From: Echinarachnius parma
Lineage: Eukaryota > Echinodermata > Echinoidea > Clypeasteroida > Echinarachniidae
Assembly: GCA_037951105.1 (NCBI GenBank)
Contig: JBAMJV010009429.1
Span: forward strand, 1 to 64,000
Reading direction: 5' to 3'
DNA length: 64,000 nt
The translations under genes were made by a program, and so were the position numbers. The notes under the pieces are model-generated. The model searched no databases and had not been told where the DNA came from. It worked only from the letters and a program-made list of their open reading frames with translations. Positions within the stretch are counted from its first letter, which is position 1. Every line of letters begins with the position of its first letter. Below are positions 24,001-27,000 of the stretch, in pieces.

Positions 24001-27000
24001 TTTCTCACCATATCTGAGAGTTGACAACGTCTCATCAAAGTTGATATCTGCAGGACTAATAGCTGCAATCTGGGGATAAAGAAAATGGAATAAAGAAACA
24101 AATATTGACATGTTATCTTAACATGACAGTGTGGAAGGTTTCTGAATTACAAACATGCAACTGCTAATATAGTTCATGTGTTTATAATTATTTGGTCTCT
24201 ATTTGATTGTGTTATCATAATCACATGTACAAAAAACAAATAAAGGTAGGGTTTTACAAAATACTGGAGTATCTGAACTTTCTGAGAAATGTATTGTTTG
24301 TGGGTGTTTTTGTTTATTTTTTGGTAAAAGGTTCACAGTAAACCATTGCTGTTTCAATGAATTGGCTTCAAACAAAAGGTTCTGTTCCCTTGACCACGGG
24401 AACCGATTGGGTTGTGTACAAAGTCTATGGGGATTTCAAAAACTTGTAGGGAACGGGTTAATTTCGACCCAACATTAGCTGTAAAGAAAACTGAAAGCAG
24501 TTTCTCACCATGATGGTCTTGCTGTTTCCCCCAAGGGCATTCTTGAGCAACATTGTCAGTTTGGAGTCTCTGTAGGGCACTGAAACAAAGAGAAACAAAA
24601 CATATTGATATTACAGAAACTAAACAATAACAATCATGCTTCTATTTAAATAGAACCTATTATGTATGATTTATAATTATATTAAAGTGCGTAAAGAACA
24701 ATTTGGGGATACCCCTCAAACCTGGAAACGATGCCAGATCACTGATGGGGCTACCATGTGTACAAATTATGAAACAAACCAATGAATAAATAAATAAAAG
24801 TAAGGTCTACTCTCTCACTGAAAAAAGGAGCCATTATTCTATAAACCCAAACCCAATCCTCCATCTAAGTTTAACTCAAGTCAGACTGTCTCTCACCTCT
24901 GACTCCCTTCTTGCCTGCCCCCTGGTCCGCTAGAGCCTTGATGACATTGCCCAGGGACAGTGACAGGTTGATGGCCGCTCCTTCCTTCAGATGGTCTCCT
25001 GTCCAACCAGTACTACCTACTCTCTTTCTGAGAGAAGGTAGCCATAATTCTAAACCAAAAACCAACACCCCCATTCAGGTCTAATCCATAAACCCAAATC
25101 AGAGTCTGTCTACGTCACAATTTTCTCACCTCTCACTCCCTTTTTGCCGGCCCCCTGGTCCGCTAGAGCTTTGATGACATTGCCCAGGGATGACAGTGAC
25201 AGGTTGATGGCAGCCCCTTCCTTCAGTCGGTCTCCCGTTGCTCCAGTACTGTCCACCCTCTCACTGTAGGGAAATGAGAATAGAGAACTTGAGTTCATCA
25301 AATGAACCTGGTGGGTCTTGTATTATCTATATAGGGATTACAATATCTAGTAGGGTACAGAGTAAGAACTAAATTTGCCTTCTAGGTAATTTAACCTTAA
25401 TGACCAAACCGTGTCAGGTAATGATCTGAGATATATTTCTCGATTTGTAATAAGAAAGAAAGATTTGTTTAAATATATGGACATTTCTAGAATTCTACCT
25501 GATGAAACAGTGAATAATTAGCAATTATTTTCATTCTACAGACTATGTATATGCAAAAATGTGCAAGTTAAGGTCATACAAAGATAATATATCTTCCCAT
25601 AACACATGATTGTGAAGAGCTCATAGAGTAGTTTGTAAATGAAAACACAAGATTCTTATCTTTATCAAAGGTACTGCATAGGAATTCTAGAGGGCATTCT
25701 AAAAAATAATTAATGGGCAGCACTATGTCTTCATAATCAGGCGGTATTGCGCCTAAGCAAGACACTCATACAACTCTCTTGTGATTGTAAGCTACAGAGC
25801 TCATGACGTACATATTAACCTAATTGGGATTGATCCTGAAATTACTCGGGCCGATCAAGGTCTATAGAAAATGAATGTTATACCCAAGTTAAATAATCTA
25901 GAATGGGTTATCTTAGCCCCTTCAAGAGAGCCTTTGAAAAGCCCCCTCTAACACCACAAAGCAGTGACTTGAACTTGTGATTATATATCCTACCTTCCAG
26001 CCAGATCCACAAGGTTAATGATAGAAGTCTTGGTCATATTCTTGCCCGTCTCATTCTTGCCCTTCTGTATGAAGCGGATGGAAACAATGGTGTGGGCTCG
26101 GCTAGAGGAGAGAAAAACATCAATATTCAAGTTGAAGCAGAATTTTAGTGCAACCCCTGATAATGCAAACGAAAGCATGGACACAAGGAAGGCATGTGGA
26201 AAGCTACCCAAAGTGTGTAATCACAAATGAATAGCAGGCTGAGGCAGGTGTACAAACTGTAGAACATTAGTGCTATCTTAGTGGCGCAGAACCTTTGGCT
26301 TATTTTTTCTGCATTTAACAGTTTTTTTTTGTTCAGAATTTGCCATCTATAACTTAATATCTTAATCTATATCTTAATGTCTTAATATCCATAATATTAA
26401 GCAAGTAGTTAGCCTAATATATCTAGCTCATCTAGCTAATACCTCTTTCACAGTTGATGCTAGTCCATAATCAGGAAAATAATACAAAAATAAAAAGCTA
26501 CTAAGCTCTCTAACTTCTCATCCAGTGTCTACTGAGCTTCTTATTACCTGCTTGTGGCATTCATGTTTGTGGATGCTATCGTCCTGTTTCTCGTCCCCTC
26601 GTTGATCTTGTTGTTGATATCATTATAGCTCATCACTGGGAAGGTTGCTTGCTGTTCAACTGTTACACACAAACAAATGACAAACATTTATGCAACATCG
26701 CAAAGAAAAAATATATACACATTTATGCAAACTTATTTTATTTAACCATTATGCAACAGGGATAAAAACTATAACATTGATCCAGTTGTTGTTGTCATCA
26801 TAGCTCATCACAGAGAGGGTCGCTTGCTTTTTAATGGTTACAGACACAGACGCAAAAAACAAGTAACAAACAATTTTAAATATGCATCTGTGCAAAAAAA
26901 AAATGTATACAAATTCATTACATACAAAGTGACCACTACATTTATTGTGCATTACACAAAGATTTTTTTTAAAAAGATATACACTGTACAATGAAATGGT

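Follow-up and report, generated by a model that had tools for sequence, protein, structure and literature searches.

A tandemly duplicated switch II exon in a kinesin gene of the echinoid Echinarachnius parma

Introduction

Tandem homologous exons that supply alternative pieces of a motor domain are known from the arthropod muscle myosin gene Mhc, for which the transcription of some variants has been confirmed and in which the relay-exon variants are described as differing at one or two conserved residues (PMC2257972). The locus described here, a kinesin gene in which exon 8 is present as two tandem copies, 8A and 8B, has the same layout. The Mhc variants differ from 8B both in that confirmation and in the kind of change, which in 8B falls on the catalytic switch. 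Splicing is also reported to alter the motor domain of a kinesin-3, as 8B would do if it were used: unc-104 carries a 7-residue microexon in two touch neurons (PMC12084633). No duplicated exon is involved in that case and, as far as PMC12084633 says, the microexon does not lie in switch II.

The residue that is lost from switch II in 8B is a glutamate, equivalent by alignment to E253 of KIF1A, and mutants at this position have been characterized in several kinesins. Among three KIF1A mutants compared in PMC5624960, E253K reduced motor activity most, gave the lowest peripheral accumulation and acted as the strongest dominant negative. KIF3B E250Q, a change of the equivalent glutamate, is described as a rigor motor that decorates microtubules, and the same source refers to KIF5B E236A as a rigor mutant and to KIF5C E237V as deficient in hydrolysis (PMC11043552). 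The KIF1A, KIF3B and KIF5B mutants are disease-associated or engineered single substitutions, whereas the changes in 8B are several and lie in a spare exon.

Most predicted ligand-binding residues (80.6%) are retained across human tandem-exon pairs, with ACTN1 and ACTN4 given as cases in which one copy has lost them (PMC9741552). The words "kinesin" and "KIF" are absent from the main texts of the human surveys of tandem and mutually exclusive exons PMC5740500 and PMC9741552. Among the literature matches listed, none dealt with mutually exclusive exons in the switch II of a kinesin. According to PMC12646758, a full-length structure of KLP-6 exists and human KIF28P, its counterpart, is considered a pseudogene. 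Among the matches listed and in the passages of that paper, we found no duplication of the switch II exon in KLP-6/KIF28.

Results

The window analyzed is a stretch of 64,000 nucleotides (contig JBAMJV010009429.1, positions 1 to 64,000, assembly GCA_037951105.1), and the kinesin gene lies on its reverse strand (-). The motor part (22569..32389, (-)) was joined from exons 1-11, with exon 1 at 32348-32389 (-) and exon 11 at 22569-22733 (-), and gave an open frame of 409 residues when 8A was used. This translation matched the Pfam Kinesin profile PF00225 with 351.2 bits over profile positions 1-327 of 327, that is, the full motor domain. Among the best 60 of 158 matching PDB sequences, the top match was 7wrg_A (519 bits, residues 3-397), and the best KIF1A chain scored lower, at 407 bits. 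The PDB table labels 7wrg as "Kinesin-like protein"; we take it to be the C. elegans kinesin-3 KLP-6. Downstream of the motor, joined pieces with approximate exon borders matched the FHA model PF00498 (25.9 bits, cut-off 20.7), and one piece matched the KIF1B model (23.2 bits, cut-off 22.2). Pfam gave no match in 2 of the 4 downstream pieces, and its Kinesin_assoc matches in this gene were below the curated cut-off. With 7wrg as the best-scoring solved relative and with FHA and KIF1B models matching downstream, the gene looks like a KLP-6/KIF28-type kinesin-3, an affinity that rests on the PDB ranking, in which few kinesin-3 types are represented.

Intron 1 (30757-32347) joins RPF to NDRE in frame and resembles an AT-AC (U12-type) intron, with donor ATATCCTTTT, acceptor AC and a branch-like TTTCTTTAAC near its end, when judged against the U12 consensus. 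The intron directly before exon 3 contains about 110 ATG/CAT triplets (28862-29194), with several frames open. A 153-bp minisatellite of 7.4 copies with 94% matches is located at 20174-21313. Tandem repeats in the window amounted to 45 rows, some of them for one and the same array. Elsewhere in the window, positions 6371-6446 resemble tRNA-Ala(AGC), scoring 32.7 bits where the gathering score is 29, and could be a tRNA-derived repeat.

The 3' end of exon 7 (25994..26101, (-)) encodes LVDLAG and adds two bases of the codon that follows (GGAAG|GTAGGA), and exon 9 (24509..24579, (-)) encodes 24 amino acids, sharing its first codon with exon 8. Between them lie both copies of exon 8. Exon 8A (25130-25263, (-)) is the normal switch II exon, with 134 nt, 45 amino acids and phase 2 in and 1 out, and it aligns with 7wrg and KIF1A. 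Exon 8B (24897-25027, (-)) has 131 nt and 44 amino acids, is open, and has the same phases. The intron between them (25028..25129, (-); 102 bp) is homologous to the stretch that follows 8B, where a second copy of an intron piece (24818..24896, (-); 79 bp) ends in the acceptor ttttttcag. The alignment across the tandem region spanned 259 columns at 74.5% similarity (E 1.15e-40), far from chance. The acceptors are ctacag|T for 8A and ctctcag|A for 8B, and the donor is GAG|GTGAGA in both. Consensus splice scores were 8.77 (acceptor) and 9.92 (donor) for 8A and 9.25 and 9.92 for 8B; only the ranking of these scores is meaningful. Joining and scoring thus confirmed the original prediction that exon 8 exists twice, with good splice sites and equal phases.

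Inclusion of 8A and 8B together gave GVR-ERE-stop, with the stop three codons past the joint, and omission of both shifted the frame and led to an early stop. At most one copy can therefore be used per productive mRNA, in agreement with what had been predicted. As read from the joined frames, the mutual exclusivity of 8A and 8B is a property of the frame and not an observed splicing pattern. The two copies have some of the features by which mutually exclusive exons are recognized, namely tandem homology, similar length, the same frame and splice sites. The hallmarks of a pseudo-exon (a stop, a frameshift or a lost splice site) are absent from 8B, which is open with both sites intact.

Compared with 8A, 8B has 19 substitutions in 131 compared bases and a 3-bp deletion. 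Thirteen of the substitutions fall within the first 37 nt; the remaining six lie in the last 94 compared nt and are all silent. The joined translations bore out the predicted change of DLAG-SE with 8A to DLAG-RK with 8B, so that the loss of the switch II glutamate, a feature of rigor kinesins, can be read from the sequence of 8B. The replacements are S>R, E>K, D>G, A>W and R>H, which by alignment correspond to S252, E253, D256, A260 and R264 in KIF1A numbering. The deletion takes out codon 25 and with it a serine of the switch II helix sequence SLSSLGN, near KIF1A 276. It had been claimed that all differences in the 3' part are silent; this holds for the six substitutions, but the 3-bp deletion also lies in that part, and the claim needs correction to that extent. 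The deletion, the D>G, A>W and R>H changes and the further duplicated pieces described below (copy C, exon 6' and a 58-bp array) had been missed. Exon 8A agrees with 7wrg, KIF1A and KIF13B, the relatives for which alignments were examined, in S252, E253, R264 and the length of the helix; D256 and A260 are not shared in this way, 7wrg having S and T at these positions. The Pfam motor score dropped from 351.2 to 332.4 bits when 8B replaced 8A. A motor containing 8B should be hydrolysis-defective and should not walk, because the altered glutamate corresponds to KIF1A E253, where E>K is strongly dominant negative; by this analogy the predicted non-hydrolysing motor, if 8B is used, stands.

A truncated third copy of exon 8, copy C (24805..24817, (-)), follows the second intron piece, and the order of the array is 8A, the 102-bp intron, 8B, the 79-bp homologous intron piece and copy C. 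Copy C consists of its own acceptor (score 9.52) and 13 nt, which would read SERVD after exon 7, and is divergent beyond this point. It has two silent states in common with 8B (AGA and GTA), yet it retains Ser-Glu. The Arg-Lys change thus most likely arose in 8B. In intron 5, exon 6' (26776..26872, (-)) is a decayed partial duplicate of exon 6; its acceptor AG is lost, which is a pseudo-exon feature, and its 3' half is missing, while its similarity to exon 6 continues upstream to about 26918. Over 21 codons, exon 6' has a ratio of replaced to silent codon changes of 9:3. A 58-bp array of 7.7 copies (15325..15783, (-)) lies before the presumed FHA-side exon, the border of which is presumed from the reading frame. 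Each unit of this array combines a pyrimidine-rich stretch and an acceptor-like AG with 11 nt from the start of the presumed exon. Tandem duplications are common within this gene, as exon 6', copy C and the 58-bp array show, and the copying of exons or exon starts in this way has hit the gene at least three times. As an observation apart, the array at 15325-15783 amounts to a row of decoy 3' splice sites ahead of a coding exon.

Substitutions in 8B were compared with a neutral model in which 8A takes only silent changes and 8B takes any change, for which the expected silent share is about 0.43-0.48. Over the whole exon, 10-12 of the 19 substitutions were silent, depending on how codons with multiple hits are counted (P 0.035-0.33 at fractions of 0.40-0.45), which fits a constrained 8A and a neutral 8B. 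For the 3' part, which was picked post hoc, 6 of 6 substitutions were silent (P 0.004-0.008 if 8B is neutral, or 0.019-0.036 for this same post hoc part with the deletion taken as non-silent), and 4.7-9.4 replacements were expected compared to 0 observed. The ratio of replaced to silent codons was 5:4 in the 5' part versus 0:6 in the 3' part (Fisher p 0.044); with the deletion counted, the 3' part became 1:6 (p 0.145). Taking changed codons over the exon, 8B (5:10) is more conservative than the dead exon 6' (9:3), with a Fisher p of 0.054.

The paired introns aligned over 76-78 bases with 10-16 differences and 5-8 gaps, depending on gap costs, a divergence of 0.13-0.21. Given these 5-8 gaps, the probability that 8B would carry either no indel or a single in-frame one was 0.007-0.048. 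A looser simulation, in which 8B had to keep net frame, have no stop and keep its splice sites, gave P 0.12-0.18 for 8B staying intact; it is generous to neutrality because any net in-frame sum of indels was counted as intact. The all-silent 3' part and the intact frame are weak signs that hint at some past constraint on 8B, too weak to claim function.

Two other readings of the substitution pattern were set aside. Clustering of substitutions at the 5' end (13/37 versus 6/94) had a permutation changepoint p of 0.004, which rose to 0.22 when adjacent changes were merged into 13 events, and we therefore did not take the mosaic divergence as evidence of functional diversification. Homogenization by gene conversion, put forward as an alternative in the original prediction, proved unnecessary to explain the similar 3' part, because at silent sites this part (6 changes in roughly 25-29 sites, the latter from 93 nt times the silent fractions) is no less diverged than the paired introns, at 0.13-0.21.

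Complementarity between introns was compared with shuffled sequences in four comparisons, in which 2, 10, 13 and 134 of 200 shuffles were at least as strong. The strongest case, 2 of 200, was that of the 8A-8B intron with intron 7, one of the four comparisons tried.

Discussion

The cheapest account of the locus is an ordinary tandem exon duplicate whose constraint is already gone or is on its way out. That 8B is a tandem exon duplicate, either drifting or recently relaxed, is the reading we favor, with somewhat better than even confidence. A local tandem duplication of exon 8 together with about 100 bp of the following intron would have produced 8B. The array probably once had three units, of which the third, copy C, would have been cut to its first 13 nt. 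Exon 8A would be the working exon, and 8B would no longer, or only weakly, be held by selection. Several multi-base changes in the 5' third of 8B (S>R, E>K, D>G, A>W, R>H) destroy switch II, and one codon of the switch II helix is gone. Because its splice sites are still good, 8B may be either skipped or sometimes spliced in. If included beside 8A, it would bring a premature stop and probably mRNA decay; if included instead of 8A, it would yield a motor that should not hydrolyze ATP. Decayed tandem pseudo-exons are present in the same gene, exon 6' being one such and copy C a truncated copy; 8B is unlike them in being still open, in frame and flanked by intact splice sites.

These same properties are what would be expected if 8A and 8B were true mutually exclusive exons, the 8B motor binding microtubules or cargo without ATP hydrolysis and acting as a tether or brake on 8A motors. 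The equal phases, the good sites, the break of frame on double use and the silent-only substitutions of the 3' part argue for this scenario. So do the dominant negative KIF1A E253K (PMC5624960) and the rigor motor KIF3B E250Q (PMC11043552), the reported loss of active residues from one tandem copy of the ACTN1 and ACTN4 EF-hands (PMC9741552), and the cell-specific splicing described for the unc-104 motor domain (PMC12084633). However, both the A>W change and the loss of a residue from the helix look like damage. The 102-bp spacing also does not seem obviously too short for 8A to be spliced to 8B, and exclusion would therefore need another mechanism. Competing RNA structures are one known mechanism that enforces exon exclusion (PMC6071210), but the intron complementarity here is mixed over its four comparisons. 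We regard mutually exclusive use as unlikely, although it is the alternative that fares best. Rather unlikely too is the bolder proposal that a kinesin-3 gene makes its own dominant negative or tether motor by swapping 8A for 8B, so that splicing would turn the motor off with cargo and regulatory tail kept.

The stop that soon follows the 8A-8B joint could also serve a purpose, if 8B were a poison exon whose inclusion with 8A sends the mRNA to decay and so tunes kinesin dose. The 8B acceptor ranks slightly above that of 8A, the donors are equal, and a 102-bp intron lies between the two copies, all of which count in favor of this reading. A poison exon requires neither an open frame nor a silent-only pattern in the 3' part, however, and there is no sign of regulation, so that we consider this scenario quite improbable. 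An assembly artefact, arising from an allele joined in error or an incorrectly resolved repeat, is very improbable despite the many hard-to-assemble tandem repeats of the window, given that the differences between 8A and 8B (19/131 bases and a codon) and between their introns (13-21% and 5-8 gaps) exceed what is usual between alleles and that the third copy, C, argues for a real array.

What the duplicate means depends on whether it is used. If 8B is used, the gene would hold a natural switch by which splicing selects either an active kinesin or a hydrolysis-dead one, working through the glutamate change of human KIF1A disease. If 8B is a duplicate that goes unused, the locus would be an example of tandem exon duplication feeding new exons and pseudo-exons, in which a dead copy (6'), a truncated one (C) and one that is still open (8B) stand side by side in one gene.
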